Source: Nereocystis luetkeana
Taxonomy: Eukaryota > Sar > Phaeophyceae > Laminariales > Laminariaceae
NCBI GenBank assembly: GCA_031213475.1
Contig: JARUPZ010000001.1
Span: 20,366,933 to 20,430,932 of the forward strand
DNA length: 64,000 nt
Reading direction: 5' to 3'
This document shows positions 29,317 to 63,829 of this stretch, piece after piece; within the stretch, counting starts at the first letter, position 1; every line of letters begins with the position of its first letter. The notes under the pieces are model-generated. The model searched no databases. It was not told the origin of the DNA and saw only the letters and a list, made by a program, of their open reading frames with translations. Made by a program: the position numbers and the translations under genes.

Positions 29317-29881
29317 TCAAACTCCCGCCGTTCCACCCAAGAGAGGTGCCAGTTCAATTTCATTGTTATGCGGTGCTCGACGTGTTTGTGCACGGTAGGC
29401 GTAGCACAAAGCTACCACGCCCCCGACGAAGATTACCACGAGCAGTCCTAGGGAAACTTCCCAAACGACGTCGGGTGCGCCGTCCAAGGCCGAAGCTCCA
29501 ACGAACAGCGTCAGTGACGCTGCGAGAAGGGTCGCGCCTAACTTTCCGGCATCGTGCTGCAGTGCCTGGAGGCAGTCTAGGCCACCATACCACCGATTTC
29601 CTGCACTCCGGTCGGAATCGCGGTCATTCTGTAACCAATCGCCTGGACGCCCTTCGGAGTCGCGACAGTCCCGAAAAGGGTCACCTAAGACAATGCGGAA
29701 GCGAATAGAAATGGGTTGGTGTTTAAATTCTTGAGGGAGGCGCGTTGGGGCAAAATAACTGGGCATTTCCATCCGGCCGGTACCACCTATCAGTATCGGG
29801 CCAACAAACATGGTCGTATTTACAAAGCGGTGCAGTTGGTTTTGCCATGAACGGTTTAGGGCGTCTGCGTTCGAGAACGGC
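29317..29881 (-). CDS. ROCO gene: C-terminal exon with two hydrophobic segments
   Basis: Open minus frame ending at a stop at 29317. It starts with hydrophilic sequence (ALNRSWQNQLHRF, MEMPSYFAPTRLPQEF). Near the end it has two hydrophobic stretches, GATLLAASLTLFVGASAL and VVWEVSLGLLVVIFVGGVV, then a polar tail ending LLGGTAGV. The only acceptor that keeps phase with the GTAAGA donor of the COR exon is GGTGAG|G at 29881/29882, which has a poor pyrimidine tract, so the 5' border is uncertain. The hydrophobic pair suggests membrane association, which is unusual for a ROCO protein. An alternative is that this is a neighbouring gene. Confidence 0.5.
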
Positions 29882-35800: not shown

Positions 35801-38800
35801 GTGGATACAGGAACGACAAACACGTTTTTTTTTTCGGCTTCTCTTCAGCCACAGCCAGCCGCCGAATTACCGACGTGGCTTGAAGCTGAACAAGGTCGAA
35901 CTTAAAAAACGGTCGTCGTCAGACGTCGGTCCCCGTCCTGCTAGTAGTCTGTCGAGACTGCCCGCATTGATCACGTGGTTTCCCACAGTCCCTCCGGCCA
36001 GACCCATTTATTTGTGAAGGTCTTAGTCCGTTGGGCTAAAGGTAAAAGGTTCACCAATCGCCTACCCAATCTAAGCCTCGAAACACTTTCCCCCCCTGGC
36101 ACGGACCGGATTTTAACGGATCGACGCGCCACCACACACGGTTACAATTTCTGGGGATCCAGAAGAATTGTTCAGGTTCTTGACATGAGGAAACTCACAT
36201 GGGCTTTGGAAAAGCGATTTCATGGTGGGCGTGAGATTAAAATTCACGACCAATGATCCATGTCCTGCCGACGACGCCACTTGTTAAGATCACGGAGAGC
36301 GGGACACTATTTATCCCTGGACAGGTCTGCTTATTAAACCGGCACTCGTTGGTGCTCACGTTGATGTTCTCTTAGAGAAAGAAGAGCCACTTTATTACTT
36401 TCGTTCACGACGGAGACTGAGACCACGCTCGTGCCTCTCTGGAAGACCCCTGGTTTTCCACCTAAGATACGCCTTCCAAGTACTACAAATACGATCCCAG
36501 TGCCAGAACCCAGGTAATTACCGGGCTTTCAACCTCATACAAAGCAGTATCATAACAACGTGGAGTGCTTACCACAGTTAAAGGCATGTGTGGCGTAGGG
36601 CTTTGAATGACAGGGAGAAAACCGTGATCGGCAGTAAACCTCTACCAGACTTACTAGTGAGCTTGTTGAAGCCAAGATCGACACGGGATAGATCCGGCAA
36701 GGTGCTTAGCTCGGCCGGAACTATACCTGGAGACGGCACAATAAAAAGGCAGAGGGAGACATCAATGCGTCTTTGAAGGAGCCACACTTCGGATATATAT
36801 TTTGATGATGTCGATCTAGAGTAAATGTGAGTGGAAAGAACAATATGGGCGTCGTTGAAAACCAAACTACTTTCACAAATACTCCGTTATTGGCTCGGCA
36901 GGACAGACTAGCGGTCAAAACTGAGGTGCACGCTAATTCCCGTACGTCCCGTACGATATGATGTCTTCCAAGCGTTCTCTGAGATACCAGTACGTGGATC
37001 AACCACAAGCACGTCGAGGCTGAGGAATGTCAACTGCTTAAGTTCAACATTTTACCGCAGCGTTGTTGGTCCTATCAGGAATGTCCCAAACAAACGTACA
37101 CGAGATCGGTTACTGGCAGCTGGCCTTAACCCGCAAATAGACAATACACCCAATCATTCGCGCGTGCGCTGCATTGACATGCTTGTATAGTTTTTTTTAA
37201 ATGTTTCCTAGCTTTGCTCGCCAGAAATCGACACTTTCACCAAATATCAACACGATTGACTATCAACTTCAACCTAGACCTAGTCTGGTGTTGTCACAGC
37301 GATGGGCCGAGCGAGTCCAAACGCAATCGGATATGCATGATCGATCAAAACCCATGTTGATGGCGAAACCAAATAGGTTTGCTGGGTGCATCGTAGTAAA
37401 ATATCTGCAGCAAACACTGCAATTAATTTGCGGTAGGAGTTTTGTCGTCTGAAGATCACCAAGGCCTAACCCTAACTCCCATCATACAGGCTGTAGGGCG
37501 GTGGCACGATCGGTTACACCCAGACACACGGCAGTTGCCTAGCATACGTAGCTGCCAACACACGCTTCAGTCAGTAAGGCGTACACTCTTTCGTTCAAAG
37601 TCGTAGACGACGGATGACATCAACGCGTGCACCCCCCCCCTCAAACAATGGGATTACGGGGGACCCTAGTAAAAAAGACCAAAATATTGTCGGTAAAAAT
37701 AGCGAAATATATAAGTTTTTGTATATGCCGTAGGTTAAATTTGTTATGATTCCCCGTAATAGTAGGAATCACGGACACATGTTGTGAGGACTACACCAAC
37801 ACTACGTCTACCTGTTTATATCAATCATCGTTGTCAGGTCGACCGTGATATGGCGAAACATGCGCAACGCCGTCTGTCGTGGCAGCGAGACGAAATCAAT
37901 GCACCAGGTTTACCGTAAGACGCACGCTTGGTCTGACTAGTGTGTACCGTGTATCTGATCTACCGTATTTCCTGAATAGCCAAACCAGTCGTTTTTTGCG
38001 GTGACCGAGTGCTGCGTTCCAGATTATAAATCAAGACCAGGTGGGCACTGGCACACAGGTGTACTGCGGTTCGAGCCAAATATGTATACCGAACAATTGC
38101 CCTCAATCAATTCCCAAGGTAACCAGCGAAACACGTGCTCTCGAACTGAAGCAGACTGAAATGTAAAGATCGTTCGCAGCTTACGAGGGATATGACACCC
38201 GTGGAAAACATACAACACTCGCAGCTACTGACGCGAGAAATTCACTTGCCAGTCAAACCGTTGTTCGCGAGGTGAAGGCTCTGTAGAGATGAGATCTTGC
38301 CAACTTCCGGGGGGATCCCTCCTGGAAGAACGACACGGAACAAAATACGACGATAAGAGTTGACGCTGTCACGGTTATTTGCGGATGTACCTAGACGGAA
38401 AACAGTGAATGTTTGCGACTGTAAACTAGAGTGGCTGAAACCTAACGTTCAAGGACAAGACGTCGAGGCAAATACAGAAAACTACTTGTGATCATGTTGC
38501 AAATACAGGGACGGTCGCCAACGTCAAGGCCTACGCGAGAAAACTACATCAAAATTACCAACATCTCAAACGTGAACGGTCTATGAAAATGTTTGTTTTT
38601 GTCCTATTTATTGTGGAGTCGAACGCGATGGGCGTTAATGCCATCTTCGATCATGATATGCTTATACGTGGGCTGTGGGCCGGGCGGAAAGACGGAGAGG
38701 TAAGGTGGCGAGATTAGGATAGTTACGTGTTGAGAATGTTGGTCAAGTGGATGTTCTACCTGCCGGCCATGGACTAACTGGGTTGTTGTAAACCAAACGA

Positions 38801-41800
38801 TGATGGCCCCAATGTCAGCGCTGCAGGCCAGAAATAACTACCCAGGTTAACGCGATTTCCAGTACACACCGCGGGCTTGTTCGCCGTATATAAGCTCCTT
38901 ATCTTGGACCCAGTGCGTGGATAGAGGACAATTTGTTCGGTGCTGAGTTTTGACAACCGCGTGGGGTTATGCCCGACGAATTAAACTGTAAAAATAGCGT
39001 CACTGTCGAGGGAGTTTGGAGTGTCGATGACATTGGTTCACAAAAGGGGACGAACATATGTAGTGAGCTGGTGGTGACCGTGCATCTATCTGCCAGACGT
39101 GAAATTATGAGTGTTAGTTGATGTTGGCCGAGGGAACAACAATTTAGCCGGTGTCCATGAAATTTCAATCATTTGCTGGTCTTTTCGATTTGTACCCGTC
39201 CCTTGCCAGCTCAAGGTCAACAGCACAAACCACCTGAACAGAGAATAAATATTTGCAGCATTTATCGAGCCAGGAAGTAGACCGGGTTGGAAGACAAAGG
39301 AGATCATAAGAGTCAGTATTTGTTCACAGAATACGGGGGCAAGTGCATGTTCTGACTAGCGGCCATGAACCGAGCTCAAACTCTTACATAATACTACTAT
39401 ACGGTACGATTCTCGACTACCGAGCTTACCGCGTTTTCGTGTACATCGCCCAAGGATGTAAATTATACAAATCGCACTCGATGTTGTACTAAGACGCGGA
39501 CATACGGCGAAATATTCGACGATAAGGTTTGAAAACCGGGTTTGGCTGAGCCGGGCAAATGAAGCTGTAGCAATGGCGCCATGGTCAGGGATGTTCGGAG
39601 CGCCGATGAGATTTCTTCGCAAGATGAGGGGGTAAAGTTGAAATGTTTCGTGACAAGCCTTCACCTGCATGGGGTGTGGAATCACGTATTTCTGTTGATA
39701 TTGCCCAGGGAACGATGTCAGCGCGGGTGTGTTTTCATTTTCAATTACTTCTTCGTGTGTTTTGTTTTGTGCTGGATGTGTTCAGTGTCAGCTAGATGTC
39801 AACGATACATTTAAACCGCGAGAACAAACTAAAATGAAAAACACCTTCGATCGAGTCATGTACTATCAACGTGGCGGGTGACGTACCTCATTTCTTCAGT
39901 GCGGTGAACGATTTCACGAGGGCCGGGCGCGCAAGTCCTGATCGAACCGGCTTTGCAAAAAAACGAGTATAATCAAAACAAAATGTGGACGGGTCCAACT
40001 CACTATCGAAACCACCACCGTATACGAGATTTGTTGATCGCGGTAGTTAACGTTTTTCCAATCTTGTCAAGCACAAGGTTGTGTCTTTATTGCGATGGCT
40101 TGAATGTATGCCGTTTCCTAAAAATTGTTGCTGTCAATGCTAGATGCAGATTGCGCGGCCAGACGCCTCTTCCAACACGTCGTAGCCCACAGATGACAAC
40201 CGGTCATGTCTTCGAAGGACGCACCCGTACAGAAGCGCGAAAAACGTAATCAAGAAACTGTATCTCTCTACAAAGAGCATCCCTTGTTTCCCGGTGGTGC
40301 GCTGTAGGGCACAAAAAGCGCAACGCTGGTGATGATAGGAATGCTCCCCCCCATCGGGTCAAGTAAACCGTAGGCGTCTCACGCTGGGTCTGCATACGCC
40401 GTACAAACGATAAGGTGTTTCAAACGACTGCAAACTTCGTTCCTAAGAGGTCTCGTGGGAGAATACATGTAGTGCCTAAAATATATGTCTACGACAACAT
40501 TCCAGGCGGAACAAAATGGATGTGTCAGTGTTGGGCATCTGCCACGCACCTGTTACCAAATCGAGCTCATTGCCACCAGCCCAACAGGTTACCGCCAACA
40601 AAAAACGTGGGTTTGCCCACCTGTGCGGTATTGGGGACATTGCGATACGTAAAACAAATTTCGAAGCATCCTACGCAGTCACTGGTGCGGGAACCACTTG
40701 CCCTTAAGACAGTTGTTGGAGAGGTCGAGGTGCTGTAGGGATGACATCTTGCCGATGTCCGATGGAATCACAGCTGCAAGAACGAAAGGGATACAAAGGT
40801 CGACTGAAGTCAGGGGGGCCAAGACTCAGATGTCGAGGTAACCAGACAGTAAAGTGCTGACCGTCTGCGACTACCCTAGGAGATCTTCTCGAACCTCACG
40901 CTAACGTCGAAGACGTCAACAACAAACATGTGATACAGTGAATACCATGAGGGAACCGGCGCGGTCGATTGAATATTTTACTGGTGGTAGATCCCGCGAG
41001 TTTTTCATCTCTGCCCTGATGACCTTGCCTCTACGGTGATGTACGAGCAGTTATCGAGGCAAACAGCCGTCACCCAGTGGACGTTTTCATCAAAGACATG
41101 TTCAGGTCATGCGGTAAAACACAACCCTCCTCAACGTAAAAGCCCACTGATGACATCCGCTCGTATTTTGGCGGTAATCACGGGTATTGTATAGGGGGAT
41201 GAAACATGCAAAACGAACATTTATTTCTGTACACACAACATCCCTTGATGTTCGGAGGCACGCTGGAAGGTACAACTAGAGCGACGTCAGTCCTGACTGC
41301 AGAGCGTCACTCGTTCGGTCCAGTAAACCGTAAGCGTTTCACGCAGGATCTGCGGGTACGCCGTAGGACATACCCGATGTTCAAAGCGGCGACTCAAGGG
41401 TAGTTTAGGACGTGCCGTCCGCGAATATCCGTAGGCTATCGAGCAATCTTTATGACAGCATACGCGGCAAAGCAATGTTCCAGGGTGGGGCATTTAGTAG
41501 GCACTGCAGTAGTTAGTTGTCAACTCGGTCTCTTTGCAATCTGCTAAGCATGTTATTTTTGAACTTGATGTAAGTTTGTCTACTCGTTTCCAGTTCACGA
41601 CATTGACACGTAAACAAGTTCGAAACATACCAGGGGTATGACGCAAAGGGGCAACGTACCAAGCAAACCGTCACTGACTTGAGAAACACCCTTACCAGTC
41701 AAGCCGTTACTGGAGAGGTCGAGGACGCGTATTGATGACATCTTGCCGATGCCCGAAGGGATCCCACCTGCAAGAACGGCACGGACAGAAAGGGCTAAGT

Positions 41801-44800
41801 GTGAATCCACCTATTACGGGGGGCCATAGTTAATAGGACCAAAAATGGTTGGTAAAAATGGTTAAATGTACAGGTTTTTATGTATACCATAGGGCCTGTT
41901 AACTATGGTCCCCAGTATTCGTGAGGAGCATCCTCACCATCTTGATTGAGTACCTACCAGTTTCCTAAGCCTCCATACAAATTCAAGAGGCCGTACCAAT
42001 GGTCAATCTACAACTCGGCAGAAGTGCGAAGCGATTATGTAATAAATCCGGTGCCTTTCTCCACTGCCAAAGACAACGAGACGAGATGGGTTCACACCGG
42101 TCCGGATTCCGTACTGGATGGGCGTGTGCAGACGAACCAGTCGGGATCTGAGTTTTTGTCAAATAAGACGTGGTAGCCATTTTTCCTGTCTATCGTCTCA
42201 ATCTTCACTACAGTTCAAGTTATTTACTCATAACCTTCGTCCACCCATAATCGCCGGATGTAACAATAACGATGCCGGTCGCCTTCAAGTTGAGCACCCT
42301 TCTGTTCGCTTGCAGAAACCAGGGCCTATATTTACGGGCATATGTGAGACCCCGGTATCGGTTTGTCTAAGCAGCGTCTGGAGTACAGGTGTTTGTGTAT
42401 AGTGCGCAGGCATTCTATTACGGGGGGCCATAGTTGATAGGGCCAAATAGGCTAGTAAAAATGGCTACATAAATAGTTTTTTTTGTATACCATAGGTCCT
42501 ATCAACTATGGTCCCCCGTAATAGAACATTCGTCAAAAGGAAGGAAGGAGAGATCAAACATGCCCCTCTTCGAGATTACCGTGCTGGAGCATGCTTCAAC
42601 TGGCTGCCGTGATATCAACTCATTTATATACACCAAAATATGATATCTTCACCAGTCCACGCCGTAAACAATGACGCTTTCGTCCCGATGCAAACGTAGG
42701 GACGAGCCTAAAGCCACCGAGACAAGGACGATTCGAATCTGATAACTTGTCGGACTCCGAACGGGAAGAACTTGCACGGACAGACCGAGGAAATCAACTT
42801 CTAGAGGGGACCCATTAATTTTGTGTCGGACAAAAGTGTTGTCGGCATTTATTTTACACATCCCGCAAACGAGAGGGCCATAGACTCCGCGTGGGGACGT
42901 GTGGTAGAGCGTGATACACAGTAAGCACATCGTGTGTCGCGTAAGTAACGAAGGCACGGAAACGTCCGTTGCGGTTAAGTCTTGGTAGCATTCGAAACAA
43001 CTCTATATGCCCTTTCTATCGGGGTCAACATCCGTTTGTTGGTGTATCATTCAGTGAGTATAAAACCGCAGAAAAAGCTGCAACGAAGCAACATGAACAC
43101 TCATCAAAAGGGACCAAAACCCAAAAGCAACTCAAGACCAAACATTGACGACCCGCGGAACGCCCGCTGGTCGACTTCGAGGACTGCAGCCAACAACATC
43201 CTGCCGAAGAAAGCCCATATCGTATACAGTGGTTGATTAGATCAACCCAGAAGACGTTATTTACTCGCTCCGACCGCCACACAACGCAATACCATGGTTG
43301 AGAATGGTTGAAGCCGGGGACAAACAGAAGCCGGGGAACCCCAGTGGTGACTGGAAGAAAGCCACGAAGCCTTGTCTGCGTGAGGATATGAATTTATTTT
43401 CGATCCTGTCGAATGGATCTTTTTTACCCCGTCCGTAGAATGGAGAGAATGCCAAGCCATTATGACGCAGCATCAGCATGTATGTGTTGTCTCTCAAATA
43501 AATGTCTAGGAATGAATGCCTATTCAAACTCATACCTGACAACACTCCTCCAGAACTAGCTCACCCTGGATCATCAGCTCTCAACAATTTAACGATCATC
43601 AATAGTACAGTGTTGGCCCGCCAACGACAAAGTGTCCGATAAGAACACAATGCTCACTTTTCGGAGAACGCTAAGAAAATGGGGTTACGAGACACGGCTT
43701 AGTGGTGCACGCTACACTAAATCCTACCACGTATCTAATAGCCGACGCTCATAGTTGTGTGAAGAGGGCGCCCTAATAAGTATCTCAGGATTGCGCAGAT
43801 CGGGGGCTTCTTGTTGGCGGGCCCATGCTGTACTTACGAAGCCCGAAACACGCTGCAGCAATAAGGTGGGGAGGTCAAGCCAGAAGCTACCCGTAGCAGT
43901 CGAGGCGATAGGCGTATTTTACATCACTTGCCGGTTAGCTCGTTACTCCGGAGATGCAGATGTTCCAATCTTGGCAGGGCGCAGAGCTCATCAGGAATCG
44001 ATCCTGCACGTATTACAGACCATCGCGAGGTGAACGTGGGCACGCGACATGCATTTAGCGGCACCGCGGGCAACTCCCACCAGATACCGCGACTTGATCA
44101 ATACGTTTGGGCGATGGCACGTACGGTGCCGGATTATCGACCGTTACAAAACAGTTCTGCCCAAATTGGCGGAGTGTTTTGTTTCAGGATCTGTACCAGT
44201 TATTGCTCAAACGACTTTCGACCTGATTCTAACAACAACGAGCAATTGTTTATGTTCCGGCCTTTCACCAGCACTTAGCATGCGGACACGACCCCGCCAA
44301 TGAGAGCAACACATCGGTGGGGCTTGGTTTCGCGTGAGACTGGTACGTCACGAACTATGCTCTGGTTTCTCGGGGCGGTTTAGGATTGCAATCCCGTTTT
44401 TGGAGACCAACTGCTCAAATTTTTAAATATTTCGTCCCCAGAACGGGGCTGGAGTCCTAAAACGGTTATACTTTCTCTTGTGTAATCTATAGGTATATAG
44501 AGTGTACTACCTTGCACGTGTGGGCATGGCCACCTCGTCAACTGAAAGACGTCCCCGGTACCTGATGTACTTCGCGAGCAATGGACATCAGGTATACCCC
44601 AACGCCTTCGATGTCCAAAACCGATGTATAGAAAAATGTTGTCAATGGCAGGGGAGACAATATTCGTTCGAGAGCAGTCCATTTTGAGACACTATTCTAG
44701 AGCGTTGGAAAACCAACATTTCGTGCCATTGGTTTCCGGAATATTAAAAACATCCTGCGGTCTGGGCTCAGCTTAACTCCACTCAGCCATAAGCGAGGTT

Positions 44801-47800
44801 CCCGTCAGTCCCACAAGAAATACACCGAGCCCAAAGAACGAAGAAACAGTGCAAAACACAGAAGCCCTCATGATATATATATATATATAACATCATGGAA
44901 ACAAAGCGTGGGACAAAACTGTTGCGTCCACGTGTCAGCTGAACCTCCGCAACGTTTCACGGTAGCCATGTGAAAAGGTCAAATCGACGTATGCTTTGGT
45001 CGGAATGGTGAACATCGGCCCCAAACGTTTCAAGGTTGACGGACTGCACGATTGAGGAACTATGAAATACTTTGTTGACTGAGTTTGTGTTCTCCGTTTT
45101 ACAGTTACTCCAGGCGATTGTCTATCGGGTGGAGCGCGATTGCATTGCTTTAGTTTCAACTGTCAAGCAAAGAATGCTTCAAGCCCCTCATGTACCAGAA
45201 GCAACACAAAACAATTCTCACACCTGAGTAAGCTGCAAATTTCTTTAGCTTCCCCCCCTTCGCTACCGATTAGCGGGGAGCGAACCGTGAAGCGATAGGG
45301 TTTGAAAAATAGAGCCCTTCCAAAATCGGATAGGATTACTTGATGTCTTGCCCAGGCGAGTTTGGAACGTAGTATGGATGAGAGCCCTAACCCATTTGAA
45401 TGGATGGATCACTCCTGAATGTATCGACTGGGAAGGTATCCTCCTCTGAATCCGCACTCACGAATGCTCCCCACAAGATTCCAAGTCCCGCGAAATGACG
45501 CCAATCGCAACCAACCGAACATCCGATTCAATACCGAGGACAATACACTCACCGGAAAATTGGTTGTGGTCAAGAGAGAGTGATGTCAAGCCGACCAGCT
45601 GGCCTAGCTTGTTGGGAATGAAACCTGGGGGCCAAACGTATATCCCAACAAGGCATGGCGAAATACGGCGCGATGTTGAATACTAAACATCAACGTGCTG
45701 TGTGCACTACACAGTCGTTCAAGTTCACTGATACCACCGCCATATACACGCAAGGTAGTGTCGGGTGATCACAACCCTGAGAAAACAACTAGATGGCTTG
45801 ATGGATAATCGTATGCGGGATAGGGGAGGCGATCGAGTCTTGCTGCCGAAAAACGAAGTGAGGATAGGATACCTGGAAGGCTCACGCTTTGTGTAGAAAA
45901 GGCATGTAAGCCATTGAGATATAGAGTAACACCTTCACTCTAATCGATTGTCGATACATGTTGAAGAAACTACTATTAATATGTAGCATTGCCGTTGGCT
46001 GCACAGACTTGCAAATACTTGCTTTATATACTCCAAAGAGCGGGATGCATCCATTGCACACCCCAGAAATTCGGGAGCGATGTGTACAAAGTAATACATC
46101 GTGTTTGGGTTGATATGTGTTTGTTCTTCACATTAAACCGTTCTTTCTACCCGTCGACATCCAGCACAACCAGTGTCCGTGCCGATTCTTCAATCCTAGA
46201 AGAGATACAAGCAAGTTCTGTGGTCACAAAGCTACGCCACAGAGATACTACGTTGCCACGTGTGCAGTATGCACTGTAGTGGGCAATGCAAAGCCATGTC
46301 ATCATACTAGATACGACAGACATGACATACGCAATCTATGAAATAGTGAAACGAAAAGAAACAATCAAAGAGAAAACAAAAAAAAGGTACGTAGACAAAT
46401 CGAAATTGAAAAAGAAGAAAAATGAAAGCAAAATCTACGAGAAACAATCTGTCGTGCCCCCCCCCCGCAGGCGAGGTGGCCAACACTTGAAAAAGAACGA
46501 GCTGGAGAAAAGAAAGAAACATAAAATAAAAAAAGAAAAAAACACCACTACTTCTTGTAAACAGAGTAAGACAAAGAACCAAGGAAAAAAGTAACAAGGA
46601 AAAATAACAAAGGGGAAATAACAGGCAGACCAAAGCCCAAAGCACCTTCCAGGTAGCGGCAGCAGTTTGTGGTACGAGTAGTATAGCCAGGTTCTCCCTG
46701 CTAATCCGCCTGGTACCTTGCTACCCAGACTGCCCTCTCCGCCCTGCGTTCGTCAACTATGCCCAACCCCTTGGCGTCAGACAATACGAAACGAGCAGAG
46801 CAGGTTCGTCATCCAACCACGCCACACGGCTCCTTCAGTACGGCTTATCAATCAGAAAAGAGAAAAAAATAAAATGAAAATCGCGGAGAATCAGCGCAAG
46901 AAAGAAAAAAAAACACAACAAAAAGAGATAAAATTAGTTTTGACAGAAGAAGCACTATTACTATAATAATGTTCTAACGCCGCCCGATGAGCCACAGGTC
47001 CAGCAAATGAATGACGATACATCCGCTACATCTGAGCGTCTAAGAAGGCTATGCGGATGCACGATCATCACCATACTACGCACCTGCGGCACGGTCCGTT
47101 TCTCTCTATATATCGGGATGCGTCGTGTACCCATTGAAGCCGAGGCCGACTCGCGTGGCCGACGCTTAAACCGATGTATATATCTTGTGACATATTTACC
47201 CTCTGGGGCCCAAAAAGGCGTCACATCTAGCTCGTACCGGACAAATATCGAAGAGTCGAACTCCGCGAGTTTCTGGTTTTGGCTGCTAATATTGCGATGT
47301 TGAAGATATATATCACTGCAACAGCGTCAGACACGGCTGTGGAATGTGTTAATTTTAATTCAACACATAAAGGTACTTCGCGACAGTATCGTAATTTTGC
47401 AAACCACACTACCGTGCTCATACTTGCCGGGTACCACATGTATGTGTCCTAGTCAAAGCCTGTCAAACGGAGGATTGACGCCGAATATGTAGAACGTATT
47501 CGATGCCTACGGCCTCTAGGAATATTGTTGACAGGACGCGACGGAAACGTGTAGATGAACGGGTCCCTCGCCTACGGCATCTAGAGCATGTTATTGGAGT
47601 CGGGCGGCATCTATCTTCCCCTGCAAAATATTCGGATGAGGTTGGCTCACAAGAATCAGCAGCTGTACATCGAAGGGATCTCACGTTGAAGGTCGTGTTG
47701 CGTTCTGCGGCTTCGTATGCTGAAAGTATGACCCCATGTTGGGACTCATCGCACCTCTCATTAACGGTACCCCCCCACCTCTAAAACACGATAGTGCTCG

Positions 47801-53800: not shown

Positions 53801-56800
53801 CAGCCCGGCATCTGTGCTCAGGGACGGTCGACCCATCAGGCGTTTGCAGGCCCTATGCCATCACAGACGAGAAGACGGGTATGTATGCACGTACAAGCAC
53901 GCCGCGAAATAGGTGCACACGTATTGGTTTTCGGGGCTCCTCTTTTGAACAGGTCTTACCTAGCCCACTAGTAACAAACACACGTGTGAAACTACAGTAC
54001 CAGGTACTTAGTAACACAATCAGGGATTCAGAGTTGGCTGACGAAAGCTGACAGAGCTCCTGTGACAAACCGCCTGCTCTTCGTTGAGAGTTGAGGGTTT
54101 CCTGCACGGGTGGGGATGCGTCATACATTCGTTTTTATACCACACCCAGGGCACAAATATAGCTGCGCCGGAAAACAGTCGCGTTCGTGCTGGATCGTGA
54201 CCAACGGGGAACCCTTTTTTTTTCTAATAATGTTCATTGATTGATCGATCGATCGCGCTACAAAAACTCTGACAACACTAACGCGCGAGACGATGATGTG
54301 GCCATCGCATGAAACACCAAAGCTTATACACACGTATGCCCCTCTCGACGTCAATCGGCGGAGAAAACCGTCACCTTTTGGCTAGGCTACGAAAACCGTG
54401 ACCGCAACCGTAACCCTAACCCTAACCCTAAATATGTTTATCACTCTTTTGGGCAACCAGAAGCAAGCAGGGCTACGAGCTGTGCCAGCCAAGGTGTTAA
54501 TAAAGGCGAGATGGGCCCTCGCCCCCCCTCAATAGATGACATTTAGATGCTATTGCTTTAGACGATGCTGATCGTGCACCAACCGACAAACAGAAAGAAA
54601 GACGTTTTCAATTTTGTGTTTTCGATATAGACTTCGGTATATACTTCACAAATACCGGGGCGAAGAACAGGAGCGACGGTACCTCGTTTGGAAACCAATA
54701 GGACACGAGAGCTCGTTTTCCGGCTATGTGCATATGCTGTGCAGACACGAAGTGTTATTTAAATCAATAATCCATTGTTACAAGTATCCGGAAGAAGATA
54801 AAACGGTGGTGCCTCGTCTGGAAACAGAAACGCTCGCTTTTCGGTTGTCTGCATACGCTGTTCAAATACGGCGAGAAAGCTAGATATCGTTTTTTCCCGA
54901 GAGAGATGATTCTCACTACTATCTATCCGAAAAAACGACTGAACCTCGTCTCGAACAAAAAAAGGGATCGCTTTTCCGTGTCTGCACATGCTTTGTAATC
55001 GGTTTTACGGGAGACCATAGATAATAGGACCTACTTGGTATTATGGTGGTAGATAAAAACCTACCAGGTACCAGGTATATATTTAACCATTTCAACTATA
55101 ATAACAACAATAGTCGGTTCTATTTATTAACTATGGCCCCCCGTAATAGATACTTTTACAAATAGAAACTCGAAACCTGAGCGGGGCATCGCACAAAGAA
55201 CAGTGTGAATATTGCGTTTGGGCGGTATTGCTTTGTTCGTCCCCTCTCCCTGTTGCGGCAGCATGGTTTGTAACCAGAGTTTTACACACTCAAAATATAT
55301 CCCTTGACGGGAGGGGGAATTGGGTAATACAACTTATACCAGTTTTCTCATGGGTGTTTTCAGCTACATTATGTCTTCACCGTTACTCGCCTTGATCCAG
55401 AACGACGATTTCCCCCCTGAAATTGGCGTCGAAAAGTACGTGTGTTTTTGCTTAGACGATATCTCGTCGAAACGGAGTCGAAAATTTTGAGCATATAATA
55501 CTTGTCACTGTCTTATAGTCTTGAGACATGCAGTGTTCTGCCAGCGATAGTACCCCTAAATTCCAAGCCCTAGTTCGCAGTGGATCACGAGACGACCTTC
55601 GTATGGTGAACTCATACATTTGCTTGACCGGGTACTAGCAATACGACACGGCACACAAAACGTCGCTTTATTGATTTGTGCTGAACCGTTGACACGGTGG
55701 AAAAAATGTGCTTCAACCTATAGGTCTTGATAATAAGGCGGCTACACTCTGTGAAGCTGTAATTGCTGTATGAATGCGGCTTTTATTGCGGCATGTGCGC
55801 TGCCATGACTACCATTTCTTCAATCAGAAAGCAAAGAAGAACGGGACATGGTGTGTTCAAAGGTGGATCGGGGCTCCTATATCGAGACATCAAGCATACC
55901 GACGTGCTGCGTGTAGCCTCCCTCAAGCCCACAGGGGCCCGACGTTGTATTGAAACCGTACCCTGTCACTAGTCCAAGATCAACCACATGCCCAAAAACG
56001 TGTGGATCGCTGATTACTACGTTCGACCAGGTACGTGGATCTTCAAATATTACAGCGGACACACGTCGAATACAGTTCAAACGTTCCACAAATTTGGAAC
56101 CTTGATCCCCACTAGTACATACGTATATCTCACCGAACAACCGATTGTCGGCAAGGTCAAGCCTTGTGAGGGCGACCAGCTTGCCGAGCCAGTGTGGGAT
56201 CAAACCTGGATACGTTGCGAGGGCGAGATCGACAAGATGGGTCGGTCTGTTGCTTCACTGCGGTCGACGTGGACTTGAACAAGACACGGTCGTACAGAGA
56301 CAAGACGGAATTAAGACCTGCTTCGAGTAAAAACAAAACTAAACCGCGTCTCAGGTTCAGCAATACCAAATTCCACCGATCAGCTCGGCCTTTTTTTTAG
56401 TACTTCGTCAAGTTGTGTGTAGTACCGAAGGTAGTCGGGTATATCCGCGCAGAAGTTCTGGGCATGTGTCCGAGCCTGACTTCGAGCACGTTAGGTACGC
56501 GACCGTCGATACATCAACAAATATAATGCTCACTGCTGCGATAGCATTATGTAAAAAAACAAGTTTAGGGTACTTTAGGTACCCCCCCCCCTGGAATTCA
56601 AAAGCCATCCAGTGGTTTATGCTCGTCGACGAAATTCCTGGACTGAGGGGGCATGAGGTTGAAATACCGTACTTGGGCCCGACCTGGGCAGCCGCGGGTT
56701 ATGTCAGATATAAACTCGAATTAATATTCAACTAAAGTTTGTATTTCTTATTGATGGCGTCTTCTCCAAAGTTTAACGCATTAGGTGAGCTGGGTTCCCG

Positions 56801-59800: not shown

Positions 59801-62800
59801 TCGTGGAGTAATACGTTATTCAGCATGTTGTCGACCGCTACTAACACCATGTTTTTAATCGCAGACTAGGGCATCACGCAACAAGGCATATACACAATAC
59901 AGCAAACATAGTCCCTTTCTCAAAGACACAAGTATTCCAACGTGCTAGACTTCCTCAAATCTACAAATGCCTGACCTTGTAACGAGACCTCACCTTGTCA
60001 TTCGCTCAGGACCTGCCCCACCCCGAAAAATGAGTGGATTGTTCCTGGTGTAGCTCGACGAGGTACATGTAGATTCGAATACGGAGGTGCACCCCAAATC
60101 GATAGCAACTAAACGCTTTGATACCCTGAGAACTTGACACTGGAGGATGTTATCGACGGCAACCTCACCGGTCAACTGATTGCTGCCCAGGACGAGCATC
60201 TTGAGGGAAACGACGTTGCTCAGCCAGTCCGGAATCGGACCTGATTACGTGACGAAAAGACGATTAACAAGACATAATCTGTGTGTTGCGTCACTGCGGA
60301 ACCCGTGGAATGCAAAAGCCGCTGCCGCGCAGGAACAAGACGGTAATTAGTAAGACCTTACTGGAGCAGAATAAAGTATGCACCGCGTTTTAGGTATATA
60401 TACCGGAAATTTGCTGCAGAGCATGCCAACCGAGGTACCGAATTCAACAGGGAATGATGCATAATATCACCTGGCAACAGTCGCAGTCACCTACCTGGCT
60501 AAGGTCCACAAGCGGCATAAGCACAACAACAGAAGATTGAGTGAATCGGTTCAGTCACAGTCCCCGTAACTATCCACGCAAAGCGCCGGAATTTCCAGAG
60601 GTAGGCCTATTCATAGTCTGACTGAGTGGTAGTGAGCGGGAAAGAGCTTCATCTATCTGTGTACTGTTTCTGAGTTACTACTGCCAAGAGTTTGGACTCG
60701 TTCCTTCTTGAACCCTTGCAGCAAATTCAGACATTCACCGTTCATACACCCACCATCGTTTTATACTCTCTTTCACCTACACACATTCCATATCGGCCTT
60801 TCCCAGGGGTTCAAGCTAGCGATTGATTTCCCTGCTGTTTTGTACCGGCCCAGGAACAACAGCGTACCTATGCCGGTGTGTCGTTACGGTGTTCAGCTGG
60901 CGGCGTTTCATGGGTGGCGATCATTTCTCGGGGGTACATGTGGCTAAGCAACAACGCACTTGCTACACGGAAAGCGCAGGAATCCAAAACTGCCCGAACT
61001 AGACCATATCAACGAATGTCATAGACCTCACAACGCCTGTTTCCCCAGTGAGCTTCGATAGATCAAGGTTAAGTCCAAAAGCGTCGAGAGCTTTCTGTCA
61101 ACAAAAGCAGCAATCAAACCTGCACGGCATCCATGCATTTTATTTCCCAACGGTTACGATACGCATTGGGGATACATGTCGGCCTGGACTACGGACCGTT
61201 CAGGCGCGGACGGTGTGAAACGTTCAATACGAGATCGAACGGCCCGCCACAGCCCACGTCAGTAGGCAGAATGAGTCCCAGTATTAGTCTTCTTTGGTCC
61301 ACACGCAACAACGTAGCGAGAGCGACTTGATATCCCGCAGTGGAGCTGTCAAACATTGCTTAACCCACAATACCCTAGCGAAGCCTCAGGAGAATATGTG
61401 TCTACTGATGAGGTCGACATGTAGTACTTCGAAAAAATGTGTCAAGAAACAAACGGTAGTTGGGTATATCCGCGAAAACCTCTGGGGTTTATGTCCGAGC
61501 CTGACCCTCGAGAACGCGAGGTACGACCGTCGATACCTTAGCCAATTCCGGAATTAATTACGAATTTGACAAATTTATGTACAATACCCAAGTAAGTCTA
61601 GAATACTCTACGTGCGCAGCCTAAAGCTCCCCTGGCATGCTGAATATGCTTGACAAAACCGCTGGTCTTAAGGTAGGAGCTGAAATACTGTACTTTTGCC
61701 CGAACTGAGCAGTCGAGAGCTATGCCCGGTACGGACTCAGCTGTTTAGTCAAACCTAGTTTGAACTTCTTGCCGATGACGTCATCTCCAGAGCACATGAG
61801 TAGCTGGGTTTACATCGTTCGTTTTACGCGTCCACACACAAACACATTGGGACGCGTTTCACGATAGAGGTAGCACATTTCCACTAAACAAGATTCTGAA
61901 TGACGGGGACCCTCAATCCAAAATCATCCGAATGTCAATCTTTGTCCGACAAATGACGTTTTTGTATACTTGGGCCATGCGATGTTTCATCGGGGAGCGA
62001 TTTGATCATTATTGCTGAAGTCAGTTTCCGGTGAGGTATGGAACTCCATTGGCGAGGAGACTCATAATATTTATTACGGGGGACCATAGTTAATAGGACC
62101 TATGGTATGTATAAAAAGCTATATATTTAACCATTTCTAGTAACACTTTTTGGTCCTATTAACTATGGTCCCCCGTAATAGTGTAAACCTCTATCGTAGA
62201 ACGCCTCTTGACTTAAAAAGAGTCCGGACATAGGGTGAAAGTACCGGTGAACGCCGACGGTTTGTCTCAGCCCATACGACACAGCAGAACACCGCTGGAA
62301 ATATCAACAACAAAGGCAACGTTTTGCTACGTTGCTGAAATGTTGGGCAGCTTGGAGTTCGCGTAGCGCCATACCTGGCACACATACACCGGATCACCTA
62401 ACGATGGTGTCTCTATTGCATTATGGCTCGGGTACTCATAAATAGAGAGTGGCCAAGCATCCGTTACCCGTTGACGTTGACGAGGGCGCTAGTCGACACG
62501 TGCGGCGAGGTAATGAGCGCTAGGTTGGGAGAGCGGTCCTAGTCCAACAATAATAGCAATTAAAAATACTACTTAGATGTGGGCATCAAAACTCAACTGT
62601 ATTCCCTCGTGGTCAGGTGGGCATCCAAACATGTTATGCCCGGTTTTTGCGTGATCAGCTAAGGCCCGAAAGTAACTTGAACCCATTGACGGAGGCAGTC
62701 GAACATACGCAAAATACGTTTCGGCCAATTAACAATAACCGCAAAGGGTATTTACTCGTCTGCGCTCCAAACGGGTGGCAAGAGCGCACGGTGAAACTCC

Positions 62801-63829
62801 TGAGAGATGTATAAACCCCGTAGGTATATAGGAATGCGAAATCAAAGCAGGAGCTACTTGATACAGTGCGGCAATGCTGGAAACCGTTCCATGTGCTTAG
62901 GTGACTAAAATTACAGACGAAAATAACGTGCGGGGAAGTTTCTTAAAACATGAGGTCGACATAAGCTACACTGAATGTCTGTTGAATAACTTACGTGATC
63001 GGGTTTACCTTCGTCATATATACCCGGAGTAACATGAGTACTGTCTCCAAACTTGTCTTAGGTTTAGGTATGACAGGTACTACGCCTTATCCATATCCGG
63101 GTATAGCGGCAAGATCCGCGGACCTGGATATTGACCAAGTACACTTTAAAAGCTTACTTTTGATAAGCCTTGGACGCAAAATTCCGTATATATACTCGGT
63201 AACTACACCCACCAAAGGGAAAAGTAGGCTTGTGAGCAGAGATCGAACTTCAGTCAACAATGACCACATAACCCGACGAACATAGTAGACGGCCACCCCG
63301 ATCGCAACGTCAAGTCTACCACATAAATGACATGTGCACGTAAATATGTTGGGCATATTTAAGAAATCGAGTGTATGCGAACAAAAGCTACACGTAGACC
63401 TTTGTCAATACTTGTAAAGTTCCGCCAATAAAAATTTCCGACTTAATTGCAGAGTAGACAGCTTCGCTGGAACATGGCGCCCCCGAAATAAAGATAAAAA
63501 AGCACTCCTCATGGCAAGCAGGATGCCACGTTTAATGATCGACCGTATATGTTTTGCCAACGGAACCCACCGTCTGTATGAGCTTATCAGAAGTGGGTAA
63601 TTGTTTGTCACGCTAGCGGGGGCCAACTACCGTACACCAAGAACGAGAATCGTGAATCCCTGGTACTCCAGGCGGTACACACAAACACGGTGCGTAAACA
63701 TGATGCAATCGGACAGAACATCGGGCGGGGGATCGAACAGGCATTGCCTCATTTTACCGTGTGATAGATGACCGTAGAAGTCGAGCGTTTCCAATGCCGC
63801 AAGCTTGCCGAGCCCTGAAGGAATCGAAC
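29317..63829 (-). CDS. LRR-ROCO GTPase gene (whole locus, 5' end outside window)
   Basis: One spliced gene on the minus strand, listed below exon by exon. Reading right to left it encodes at least eleven 24-residue LRRs, a Roc GTPase domain (GSSQAGKT P-loop, DCAGQ switch II, NKCD guanine-specificity motif), a COR domain and a C-terminal tail with two hydrophobic segments. ROCO proteins are dimeric Ras-like GTPases; LRR-bearing members act as signalling switches. Brown-algal members with one LRR per exon have been proposed as pathogen receptors. All LRR exons are 72 nt and phase 1/1. Introns run from about 0.1 to 4.6 kb and are full of transposons. No start codon or signal peptide is visible because the gene continues past the right edge. 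Confidence in the domain assignment is high; the exact terminal exon and the number of LRR exons used are less certain. Confidence 0.85.
30008..30907 (-). CDS. ROCO gene: COR domain exon
   Basis: 900 nt. The acceptor is CCCATCCAG|C at 30907/30908 (phase 2 in) and the donor is GGTAG|GTAAGAC at 30008/30007 (phase 2 out). The peptide starts EFSGQIVRVDGGLGIFMDV and continues LLSKVLNPILDHRLK, which matches the part of COR domains where a buried hydrophobic strand precedes a 'decision to replace' segment. Later it has SLSEVLVKLGVAIPIR, MLMPRWLP and RLYIVVIEYV, typical of the COR-B winged-helix part. COR is the dimerisation module next to Roc. A second donor (GAG|GTACGC at about 30107) is possible. 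Confidence 0.75.
31298..31655 (-). repeat. dispersed repeat D, copy 1
   Basis: About 360 bp. Read on the minus strand it matches 46108-46505 on the plus strand. Shared landmarks include TTCTTCAATCCTAGAA, CACAGAGATACTACG, GCCATGTCATCATACT and GATACGACAGACA. It begins in the intron just after the 31697 exon. Nature unknown; no TIRs seen. Confidence 0.75.
31697..32286 (-). CDS. ROCO gene: end of Roc and start of COR
   Basis: 590 nt. Acceptor GCGCGCAG|GTC at 32286/32287 (phase 0), donor GATAAG|GTCAGA at 31697/31696 (phase 2). The encoded piece begins VIHRDVMQWLYALHL and contains VILVANKCD, the G4 motif (NKxD) that reads guanine. It continues with ISSLSCQDGFGLEAL, which occupies the position of the G5 loop. 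COR starts around VPPSWNLGLAFIDALRD. Joining to the COR exon at 30907 keeps the frame (AG+C = Ser). The donor is a non-ideal GTCAGA; the open frame runs past it into repeat-derived sequence, which supports ending the exon here. Confidence 0.75.
32716..32959 (-). CDS. ROCO gene: Roc switch I/II exon
   Basis: 244 nt. Acceptor CACCTGCAG|CG at 32959/32960 (phase 2 in) and donor GATGAG|GTGAGC at 32716/32715 (phase 0 out). With the preceding exon it completes GKT-Ser and continues VMNSIVDGRANAT. Thr in DVSTVGVDL is the likely switch I/G2 threonine, and VEFYDCAGQLDYAGMQQ carries the G3 DxxGQ motif. The next stretch, FLGGRALYLLVWDVTR, is the conserved strand before G4. All G motifs needed for nucleotide binding are intact. 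Confidence 0.85.
33160..33497 (-). mobile_element. SINE-like element, copy 1
   Basis: A minus-strand element of about 340 bp. The head (33497 to 33421) is tRNA-like, with A-box TGGCTCGGTAGG, a T-arm GTGGGTTCAAGTCTCAC with perfect stem and B-box, and acceptor arms GTCCCCG and CGAGGGC pairing with one mismatch. The body runs to about 33190 and the far end is T-rich on the plus strand (A-rich tail). It lies in the Roc intron 32960-34299. Homologous to 49781-50109. Confidence 0.6.
34096..34203. mobile_element. MITE family A, copy 5 (right end eroded)
   Basis: The left TIR is intact (CTATTACGGAGGACCATAG). After TTTGGTCCTATTGG the right end has lost the ATGGTCCCCCG part and runs directly into CTGTAATAG. 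It also carries an extra ACCTGGT near 34121. Lies in the intron upstream of the P-loop exon's downstream neighbour. Confidence 0.75.
34300..34564 (-). CDS. ROCO gene: LRR-Roc linker and P-loop exon
   Basis: 265 nt. Acceptor TGTGTCCAG|AT at 34564/34565 (phase 1 in, the phase of all LRR exons) and donor GACCAG|GTAAGA at 34300/34299 (phase 2 out). It encodes LGDVDDALRLLQHFDKRQ, then FEYLLLLDGNPWVRPPEAVL, AIRTYLVDVRTAMDAG and the nucleotide-binding strand plus P-loop KVVLVGSSQAGKT. The match to the Walker A consensus GxxxxGK[ST] is exact. The phase-1 entry fits splicing directly from the last LRR exon at 36655. Confidence 0.85.
34565..36654 (-). other. ROCO intron (LRR to P-loop)
   Basis: 2.1 kb. 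Holds MITE B (34659). A minus-strand open stretch at 35223-35585 (contains RFYRTHDGELIQHAG) has no clear splice sites or domain and is not called. Confidence 0.5.
34659..34902 (-). mobile_element. MITE family B, copy in reverse
   Basis: About 244 bp bounded by GTTCTACGATCGAGG and TCTATCGTAGAAC. Internal order is reversed relative to 1210-1452 (AATGACGGGGCTCC first, GTGAGGTATGGAGCTCCTCA last). Lies 94 bp upstream of the P-loop exon. Confidence 0.8.
36655..36726 (-). CDS. ROCO gene: LRR exon (nearest to Roc)
   Basis: 72 nt. Acceptor CCAG|GTATAG at 36726/36727, donor CACTA|GTAAGT. Encodes IVPAELSTLPDLSRVDLGFN and KLT. This is the last intact LRR before the GTPase part. It differs in flavour from the central exons (Phe at the Asn-preceding position, Ser/Asn instead of Gly after KLT). 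Confidence 0.85.
36727..38249 (-). other. ROCO intron
   Basis: 1.5 kb; MITE A copy 6 at 37653 and a C tract at 37632-37640. Ends (in transcript order it starts) with a GC donor at 38249. No other gene seen. Confidence 0.6.
37653..37762. mobile_element. MITE family A, copy 6
   Basis: About 110 bp. Left end ATTACGGGGGACCCTAGTAA, right end ATTCCCCGTAATAG; several substitutions in both arms, so an older copy. Confidence 0.75.
38250..38321 (-). CDS. ROCO gene: LRR exon with GC donor
   Basis: 72 nt. Acceptor CTTCCAG|GAGGG, donor ACTG|GCAAGTG, a GC-AG intron. Encodes GIPPEVGKISSLQSLHLANN and GLTG, a full LRR. Close relative of the exons at 40702 and 41696. Confidence 0.85.
38322..40701 (-). other. 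ROCO intron, partly duplicated
   Basis: 2.4 kb, no extra exon found. The stretch 40240-40410 (ACATCCCTTG-like, CAAGTAAACCGTAGGCGTCTC) is homologous to 41215-41375. Confidence 0.55.
40702..40773 (-). CDS. ROCO gene: LRR exon with GC donor
   Basis: 72 nt. Acceptor TTCTTGCAG|CTGTG, donor AAGG|GCAAGTG. Encodes VIPSDIGKMSSLQHLDLSNN and CLKG. Sister of the exon at 41696, 994 bp away; the flanking introns are also homologous. Cys replaces the usual small or charged residue after NN. Confidence 0.85.
40774..41695 (-). other. ROCO intron, partly duplicated
   Basis: 0.9 kb; 41215-41375 matches 40240-40410, so the exon/intron pair was duplicated as a unit of about 1 kb. Confidence 0.6.
41696..41767 (-). 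CDS. ROCO gene: LRR exon
   Basis: 72 nt. Acceptor TTCTTGCAG|GTGGG, donor ACTG|GTAAGG. Encodes GIPSGIGKMSSIRVLDLSSN and GLTG, a textbook plant-type LRR core (LxxLDLSSNxLTG). A MITE A copy lies 44 bp away in the upstream intron. Confidence 0.9.
41811..41919. mobile_element. MITE family A, copy 7
   Basis: Begins CTATTACGGGGGGCCATAG and ends ACTATGGTCCCCAGTATTC. Core AAAAATGGTTGGTAAAAATG. In the intron immediately upstream of LRR exon 41696. Confidence 0.85.
42415..42524. mobile_element. MITE family A, copy 8
   Basis: 110 bp with inverted ends CTATTACGGGGGGCCATAG and ACTATGGTCCCCCGTAATAG. Flanked by TTCTA on the left and TAGAA on the right, so the repeat can be extended as a palindrome or read with a TA target duplication. 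Confidence 0.9.
43932..44003 (-). CDS. ROCO gene: LRR exon with GC donor
   Basis: 72 nt. Acceptor CGTGCAG|GATCG, donor ACCG|GCAAGTG (GC-AG intron). Encodes SIPDELCALPRLEHLHLRSN and ELTG. Confidence 0.85.
44004..45552 (-). other. ROCO intron
   Basis: 1.5 kb; MITE C at 44375 and a TA run at 44874-44888. Confidence 0.55.
44375..44468. mobile_element. MITE family C copy
   Basis: Left arm GGCGGTTTAGGATTGCAATC continuing CCCGTTTTTGGAGAC; right arm GTCCCCAGAACGGGGCTGGA then GTCCTAAAACGG. In the intron between LRR exons 43932 and 45553. Confidence 0.7.
45553..45624 (-). CDS. ROCO gene: LRR exon
   Basis: 72 nt. Acceptor CCCCCAG|GTTTC, donor TCCG|GTGAGTG. Encodes FIPNKLGQLVGLTSLSLDHN and QFSG. Confidence 0.85.
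45625..49620 (-). other. ROCO intron
   Basis: 4.0 kb; repeat D copy 2 (46108), A-rich DNA, and a probable remnant of MITE B near 48190-48240 (GCATGGAGCTCCTTGAG). No LRR exon seen. Confidence 0.5.
46108..46505 (+). repeat. dispersed repeat D, copy 2
   Basis: Inverted partner of the repeat at 31298-31655, within the intron between LRR exons 45553 and 49621. Followed by A-rich DNA to about 46615. Open frames inside (for example the Lys-rich frame 46286-46594) are not conserved as protein between the two copies. Confidence 0.75.
49621..49692 (-). CDS. ROCO gene: LRR exon
   Basis: 72 nt. Acceptor GCATGCAG|GTTCC, donor ATCG|GTGAGAT. Encodes SIPDWLSNLVALTMLDLSCN and GFIG. Belongs to the IPDWLSN group with the exons at 56134 and 60169; surrounding intron DNA is shared with those two. 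Confidence 0.85.
49693..51495 (+). other. ROCO intron with SINE
   Basis: 1.8 kb; SINE copy 2, then sequence homologous to 60340-60800 and, near 51060-51180, to 62330-62450. TA run at 51358-51371. Confidence 0.5.
49781..50109 (-). mobile_element. SINE-like element, copy 2
   Basis: Same order of landmarks as copy 1: GTGGTCACAGGTGT, CCCAC, TCGTCGATTTTC, then the tRNA-like head at 50029-50102 (CACTCGGTGAAACTCGGACC, GGCACGCGGACCAC). A T-run at 49791-49797 marks the tail. Related introns at 56310 and 60335 lack the insertion. Confidence 0.65.
51496..51567 (-). CDS. ROCO gene: LRR exon
   Basis: 72 nt. Acceptor GCATGCAG|GTTCG, donor ACAG|GTTAGT. Encodes SIPSGMSKLVNLEKLDIRNN and DLTG. Confidence 0.85.
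54411..54432 (+). repeat. short CCCTAA (telomere-type) repeat
   Basis: Three to four CCCTAA units in a row (TAACCCTAACCCTAACCCTAAA), preceded by looser variants CCGTGACCGCAACCG. Interstitial, within the ROCO intron 51568-56133. Confidence 0.8.
55003..55149. mobile_element. MITE family A, copy 9 (expanded)
   Basis: About 147 bp, longer than the usual 110. TIRs are present (TTTTACGGGAGACCATAG and ACTATGGCCCCCCGTAATAG). The extra length comes from repeated ACCAGGTA/TACCTGG-type sequence near 55033-55078. Confidence 0.75.
56134..56205 (-). CDS. ROCO gene: LRR exon
   Basis: 72 nt. Acceptor TATCCAG|GTTTG, donor TTCG|GTGAGAT. Encodes LIPHWLGKLVALTRLDLADN and RLFG. Same duplicated unit as 49621 and 60169. 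Confidence 0.85.
58317..58426. mobile_element. MITE family A, copy 10
   Basis: Left end CTATCACGGGGGACCATAG, right end ACTATGATCCCCCGCAAAAG. 71 bp before the next copy and in the same orientation. Confidence 0.85.
58498..58611. mobile_element. MITE family A, copy 11
   Basis: Left end CTATTACGGGGGACCATAG, right end TAGTATGCCTCCCCCCCGTAATAG in part; about 114 bp. Near-tandem with copy 10. Confidence 0.85.
58834..58896 (-). pseudogene. possible decayed LRR exon
   Basis: After CATGCTGCAG at 58897 the minus strand reads SILSELVRLTVLRSL, which matches the first half of an LRR exon (consensus SIPxxLxxLxxLxxL). The second half (ARRGLG) has lost the LxLxxN core, and the open stretch to a GGG|GTACC donor is 63 nt, 9 nt short of 72. 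It could be a degenerate LRR or chance. Confidence 0.3.
60169..60240 (-). CDS. ROCO gene: LRR exon
   Basis: 72 nt. Acceptor TAATCAG|GTCCG, donor ACCG|GTGAGGT. Encodes PIPDWLSNVVSLKMLVLGSN and QLTG. Third member of the IPDWLSN unit. Confidence 0.85.
61046..61119 (-). pseudogene. dead LRR exon of the ROCO gene
   Basis: The acceptor CGTGCAG|GTTTG is intact and the nucleotide sequence follows an LRR exon to its end (CTCACTG). The segment is 74 nt instead of 72, so the frame shifts inside it. The conserved IP is replaced (LIAAF), and the donor position reads G|GGGAAAC instead of G|GTxAGx. If spliced in, it would break the downstream frame. It is best read as an inactivated member of the exon array. 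Confidence 0.6.
61856..62202 (-). mobile_element. MITE family B, reverse copy, interrupted by MITE A
   Basis: Ends GTTTCACGATAGAGG and CTCTATCGTAGAAC. The internal order matches the reverse copy at 34659 (AATGACGGGGACCC, GGGCCATGCGATGTTTCATCGG, GTGAGGTATGGAACTCC). It is split by a complete family A element at 62071-62181; without that it is about 236 bp. Confidence 0.8.
62071..62181. mobile_element. MITE family A, copy 12 (nested in family B)
   Basis: 111 bp with excellent inverted ends TTATTACGGGGGACCATAG and ACTATGGTCCCCCGTAATA. Core orientation as in copy 3 (GTATGTATAAAAAGCTATAT). Inserted near one end of a family B element. Confidence 0.9.
63758..63829 (-). CDS. ROCO gene: LRR exon (most 5' in window)
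   Basis: 72 nt. Acceptor CTGCAGAAG|GTTCG (the competing CTGCAG three bases upstream would add one codon) and donor CACG|GTAAAA. Encodes SIPSGLGKLAALETLDFYGH and LSHG. The second half is off-consensus (YGHLSHG where xNxLxG is expected), so it may be a weak or decaying repeat although its frame is intact. Confidence 0.7.

Follow-up and report, generated by a model that had tools for sequence, protein, structure and literature searches.

A tandem array of one-repeat cassette exons in a probable LRR-ROCO gene of the kelp Nereocystis luetkeana

The 64,000-nucleotide stretch of DNA analysed here (the window; C1:20366933-20430932, on a 21.9-Mb contig of the 465-Mb genome) contains an array of LRR exons that forms the sensor part of one large, apparently intact receptor-like gene. 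Judging from the exons that join this array, the single gene very probably codes for a brown-algal type of LRR-ROC-COR (ROCO) protein. The gene extends past the window edge and measures about 49 kb, with 15 cassette exons spread over about 39 kb. These cassettes are continuous in frame with an N-cap exon upstream and with ROC GTPase and putative COR exons downstream. Together, the 21 modelled exons, including the 15 cassettes, provide 1,073 codons in frame with zero stops.

Brown-algal LRR-ROCO genes were reportedly first described by Zambounis et al. in 2012. Excerpts of a later study by Teng et al. 2024 (PMC11378527) draw on 111 ROCO genes of four brown-algal species, and describe 72-bp exons with one LRR each, together with exon shuffling, in the groups 1 and 2 of these genes. 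The window gene is like these groups in its symmetric 72-nt one-LRR exons (23 residues at nt 3-71, LxxLxxLxxLxLxxNxL), in the combination of an N-terminal LRR region, a ROC and a putative, weakly recognisable COR, and in the occurrence of several such genes per genome. It is unlike them in that it carries a different array, with 15 cassettes over about 39 kb and GC donors at three of the 15, and in that its neighbour contains a 69-nt cassette. The earlier note had proposed kinship with brown-algal LRR-ROCO genes, and this is borne out by ROC and putative COR exons that continue the reading frame of the cassettes. The idea that the array may be undescribed holds in part: we found no description of this particular array, but its organisation has been published for four brown algae, according to the excerpted text of PMC11378527. 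By its sequence, the window gene is a new example of a published brown-algal gene type, not a new phenomenon.

The cassette exons and the gene model

Inspection of the window had previously led to the description of eleven exons between positions 36655 and 63829, each 72 nt long, each flanked by phase-1 introns and each coding for one LRR of 24 residues. All eleven are present on the minus strand. Every one of them has an AG directly before it, opens with the final two nucleotides of one codon and closes with the first nucleotide of another. Phase 1 is used here in its usual definition; the same phase is named 2 in PMC11378527. The codons split by the junctions had been characterized as Gly-type, which is correct for most junctions, but the codon before 40773 encodes Ala and the codon after 36726 encodes Asn. 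The array also turned out to be larger than described. Eleven cassettes do lie within the window, but 59.4 kb of added sequence contained four more upstream of it (66479, 74458, 75046 and 75736 in continued window coordinates, minus strand), for a total of 15. The length of 72 nt applies to all 15 cassettes of this gene, but in the neighbouring ROCO gene to only six of seven, the seventh being 69 nt long. The symmetry of the one-LRR cassettes was confirmed, as all 16 introns that border cassettes are in phase 1.

In the direction of transcription (all minus strand), the gene model starts with a candidate first exon (MSGTTVRG, 78864-78843) and the N-cap exon (78565-78347; both in continued window coordinates), followed by the four upstream cassettes. 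The first cassette inside the window (63758..63829; SIPSGLGKLAALETLDFYGHLSH) is a weaker, divergent one with FYGHLSH where LxxNxL is usual. It uses an AAG acceptor with a CAG 3 nt before. This most divergent cassette displays a NAGNAG acceptor (cagaag), at which one residue could be added by splicing. The next exons are 60169..60240 and 56134..56205, both of which belong to a subfamily that we call B, then 51496..51567 with the donor GTTAGT, 49621..49692, again from subfamily B, 45553..45624, and 43932..44003 with a GC donor. Three cassettes of a subfamily C follow, of which 41696..41767 has a GT donor and 40702..40773 and 38250..38321 have GC donors. The last LRR cassette is located at 36655..36726. 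The first 17 introns of the gene, through the intron after this last cassette, are in phase 1, and the remaining three are in phases 2, 0 and 2. Intron lengths range from 277 to 7,907 nt. The exon ends in this model rest on splice consensus, on frame continuity and on one paralogue.

The introns contain several repeats. Two copies with 75% identity at 33420-33494 and 50028-50102 on the minus strand look like tRNA-derived SINEs by eye; ARAGORN called no tRNA. Other intron repeats, among them 34126-34192, 41811-41913 and 62094-62160, appear MITE-like by eye, with TAGGACC...GGTCCTA in one pair, and include a six-copy family of 103 nt. Upstream of the gene, a stretch of 1,138 open codons on the minus strand (94270-90857, continued window coordinates) resembles, by eye, the polyprotein of a non-LTR retrotransposon with endonuclease and reverse transcriptase.

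The assignment of the cassettes as LRRs was examined with a nine-position LRR score, which was written after the exons had been seen. On the minus strand of the window, ten segments reached a score of 9 and one (63829) reached 8. No segment on the plus strand scored 8 or more, and neither did any segment on either strand of 60 order-2 Markov windows, for which the best score was 7, reached 29 times. A score of 8 alone is no proof, because three segments without any likeness to LRRs (one at 90458) also scored 8 in other real sequence that we scanned; a stretch of another LRR gene in this sequence scored 9. Independent of this score, the spliced protein matches the Pfam families LRR_1 (3.5e-49) and LRR_8 (5.3e-48), with LRR scores that exceed the Pfam cut-off. 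The idea that 72-nt cassettes represent the general LRR design of this genome is unsupported, as an LRR gene on contig C21 has longer multi-LRR exons, even though one of its stretches satisfies the 9-point scan. A cassette profile found no match in 90 kb around an LRR match on contig C16. Searches of the whole genome with the LRR families gave 1 and 10 matches, none of which correspond to the cassettes of the window, and are too insensitive for counting cassettes.

The ROC and COR exons and related genes

The cassettes are followed by an exon that codes for the LRR C-cap and the start of the ROC GTPase with the P-loop GSSQAGKT (34300..34564, minus strand, phase 1 to 2; 49% of 98 aligned positions are identical in the neighbouring gene). 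ROC exon 2 contains the DCAGQ switch region (32716..32959), and ROC exon 3 contains NKCD and continues into the COR region (31697..32286). The COR exon (30109..30907) completes the 21 modelled exons. Beyond it lies a further, conserved C-terminal exon (29787..30007), which shares 36% identity with the neighbouring gene over 76 aa (2.7e-8); its 3' boundary and the last exon or exons of the gene are uncertain. All of these exons are on the minus strand. The Pfam family Roc (PF08477) matches the spliced protein C-terminal to the LRRs and in frame with them (1.1e-15, 58.3 bits vs a cut-off of 27). The GTPase motifs GSSQAGKTS, DCAGQ and NKCD of the window gene recur in the paralogue as GSSxAGKTS, DCAGQ and NKCD.

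When the part of the protein after the LRRs was compared with the PDB, the top three among the best 60 of 144 distinct sequences were 4wnr (a leucine-rich-repeat protein, 7.4e-8) and two LRRK2 ROC entries. Rab GTPases followed close behind LRRK2. Since they score almost like LRRK2, the PDB matches alone do not single out Roco proteins. We take 4wnr to be an archaeal Roco and, together with 6hlu and 3dpu (both titled 'Rab family protein'), to represent the prokaryotic Rocos. Prokaryotic and animal Roco proteins (4wnr, 6hlu/3dpu, LRRK2) share with the window gene a ROC GTPase that follows the LRRs. To our knowledge, prokaryotic Roco genes do not contain cassette exons of this kind. LRRK2 carries a kinase, whereas we found none in the window gene.

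The COR domain is less easily recognized. The COR exon matches COR-B (PF25497) with 0.0026 and 18 bits, below the cut-off of 27; COR is absent from the Pfam matches of the whole spliced protein, and a COR profile gave zero matches in the PDB. An AlphaFold model of the region had a mean pLDDT of 38.9 and was too poor for structure searching. The position of this exon after ROC and its conservation in the paralogue would fit a COR domain. For comparison, a COR was detected in 18 of the 111 brown-algal ROCO genes, according to excerpts of PMC11378527. Viral contigs searched with the COR exon gave no match. Just past the COR region, the minus strand contains a hydrophobic frame (29317-29590) with two stretches that resemble membrane helices by eye. 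No convincing counterpart of this frame, whose end lies at 29317, turned up near the neighbouring gene, and a membrane-anchored ROCO protein is unproved.

Related exons occur elsewhere in the genome, and the following match counts are lower bounds. At least five matches to the COR exon were found. One is the window gene itself, three more are nearly full-length copies with 49-53% identity on C24, on C34 (interrupted by one stop) and at C1:20523768, and the fifth is a weak fragment. The ROC exons gave at least ten matches, eight of which lie in the same four ROCO genes and two weaker ones on C28 and C11; one of the ROC exon matches on C24 carries one stop. The N-cap also has at least ten matches, including those in the four ROCO genes. 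In all four genes, N-cap, ROC and COR occur in identical order, with N-cap-to-COR spans of about 49, 24, 37 and 25 kb. The nearest ROCO gene upstream of the window gene is its tandem neighbour on the same strand (C1:20523338-20547884, with the COR copy at C1:20523768), which has the seven cassettes mentioned above and 960 codons with no stop. Still further along the contig, an isolated N-cap fragment (C1:20663085-20663201, plus strand; 82% identical to the window gene over 39 aa) lies beside a weak COR fragment on the opposite strand (C1:20665540-20665680, minus strand; E 0.24). These two fragments are perhaps the remains of a partial duplicate.

Growth and age of the array

Ten of the 15 cassettes fall into three subfamilies: A (75736, 75046 and 74458), B (66479, 60240, 56205 and 49692) and C (41767, 40773 and 38321). 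Members of B and C and the pair 75736/75046 are alike in register into their flanking introns, over a maximum of 453 nt (49692 vs 56205). The likeness of 74458 to the other two members of A is limited to the exon. Since most subfamily cassettes resemble each other in exon and flanking intron alike, the array grew through the copying of DNA blocks whose breakpoints lay in the introns. The shared intron flanks thus support the proposal that cassettes multiplied at this locus as exon-plus-intron blocks. Consistent with this history, 19 of 21 cassettes from the window gene and its neighbour find their best match within their own gene (the 69-nt cassette was left out). The two exceptions, 44003 in the window gene and 48669 in the neighbour, are reciprocal best matches with 65% identity, a pair that perhaps predates the gene duplication.

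None of these duplications appears to be recent. The closest pair of cassettes is 85% identical, other pairs within families are 67-75% identical, and there is no near-identical pair. Within-family pS amounts to about 0.32 to 0.66. A nucleotide profile of the 15 cassettes recovered from 123 kb of sequence those 15 and one faint match (12.6 bits, E 0.0099), with all remaining hits at E >2. Old copies with a single faint possible relic do not indicate recent germline turnover, and frequent turnover would be expected to leave both relics and near-identical copies. The old and hardly decayed array argues for a slow germline birth of cassettes over rapid turnover. A single assembly would carry no trace of somatic change, on which the age of the cassettes says nothing either way.

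Excerpts of PMC11378527 report positive selection at sites 14, 16, 18 and 19 of the LRR, which lie on its concave face. In our array, the most variable repeat positions are 14, 21 and 19; positions 16 and 18 are not among the top three. For pairs within subfamilies, which cover 10 of the 15 cassettes, pN/pS is 0.75 at sites 14, 16, 18 and 19 vs 0.48 elsewhere, neither of which exceeds 1. The ratio stayed below 1 in every site class tested, with a maximum of 0.92.

Splice donors and possible roles of the cassettes

Three of the 15 cassettes in the window gene (43932-44003, 40702-40773 and 38250-38321) and three of the seven in the neighbouring ROCO gene are followed by GC instead of GT donors. 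In the two genes combined, 6 of 22 cassettes have a GC donor vs 0 of 11 other introns (one-sided Fisher p = 0.067), in a small sample that excludes two uncertain C-terminal donors and includes some cassettes related by descent. The other exon ends were chosen by eye among GT sites, and four of these are consistent in both genes. Excerpts of PMC7242645 state that, in human and mouse, GC-AG accounts for about 0.8% of protein-coding splice junctions, and that genes carrying such introns have a greater tendency towards alternative splicing in these two species. The terms GC-AG and splice site are absent from the excerpted main text of PMC11378527, and in the literature on brown algae or Ectocarpus and GC-AG we found no title bearing on such introns. 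As read from these two genes, GC donors at ROCO cassettes may be a new detail. One could speculate that they constitute a code that marks optional cassettes, with donor strength setting the inclusion of each repeat, such that a genomically fixed array would yield graded isoforms; we regard this as a long shot.

The LRR arc would bind a ligand or partner and relay this to the GTPase switch of ROC and to the COR domain. The protein would probably act inside the cell, as no signal peptide is apparent by eye from the candidate start exon (MSGTTVRG). Symmetric phase would allow cassettes to be gained, lost or skipped in frame, over evolutionary time and perhaps also in splicing: with phase 1 in all cassette-bordering introns, the skipping of any cassette preserves the frame.

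How much of this potential is in use can be weighed from the same data. About an even chance can be given to an ordinary fixed LRR gene, in which the layout of one exon per repeat is a relic of its origin and nothing is now variable. The cassettes are old and intact, and the pN/pS values below 1 point in the same direction. On the other hand, the two genes that were read contain 15 and 7 cassettes and the N-cap-to-COR spans of the four family members range from about 24 to about 49 kb; these differences indicate that arrays change over longer times. An active generator of diversity, in which alternative splicing mixes cassettes into many receptor isoforms per locus in the manner of arthropod Dscam, seems possible though doubtful. 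Such a role would exploit the 16 of 16 phase-1 introns and could draw on the GC donors, and variants with different LRR sets have been published for Ectocarpus ROCO genes, two of which serve as examples in the excerpts of PMC11378527. However, constitutive inclusion is the simplest reading of a full 15-cassette frame that is open, and the GC-donor contrast relies on other exon ends that were chosen by eye. Dscam, which is also cited in excerpts of PMC11378527, likewise has tandem homologous exons that can be selected in splicing, but its domains are unrelated, and the mutually exclusive clusters of Dscam would not need the single open frame in which the window gene joins its 15 cassettes.

Frequent shuffling of cassettes by germline or somatic recombination appears very unlikely. 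This adaptive-immunity idea, attributed to Zambounis 2012 in excerpts of PMC11378527, is compatible with the repeated duplication within the gene, with the 19 of 21 cassettes that match best in their own gene, and with the intron flanks shared by subfamilies. Against frequent germline events stand the moderate identities of even the closest pairs and the single faint relic; as to somatic events, the excerpts of PMC11378527 mention that there are no reports of ROCO loci recombined in somatic cells.

An immune role of ROCO genes is a hypothesis, and growth or stress signalling are other possible roles. It has this standing because the literature, as far as the excerpts go, connects variation in the growth of a kelp with ROCO genes (PMC12913910), names them for both defence and development (PMC4421812), or finds them outside all regions under selection in Undaria (PMC7929912). 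Excerpts of PMC11378527 list LRR-ROCO genes as candidate immune receptors in brown algae. For this family, the complete array, sorted into duplication families, offers a stable baseline for counting variation among isoforms and strains.
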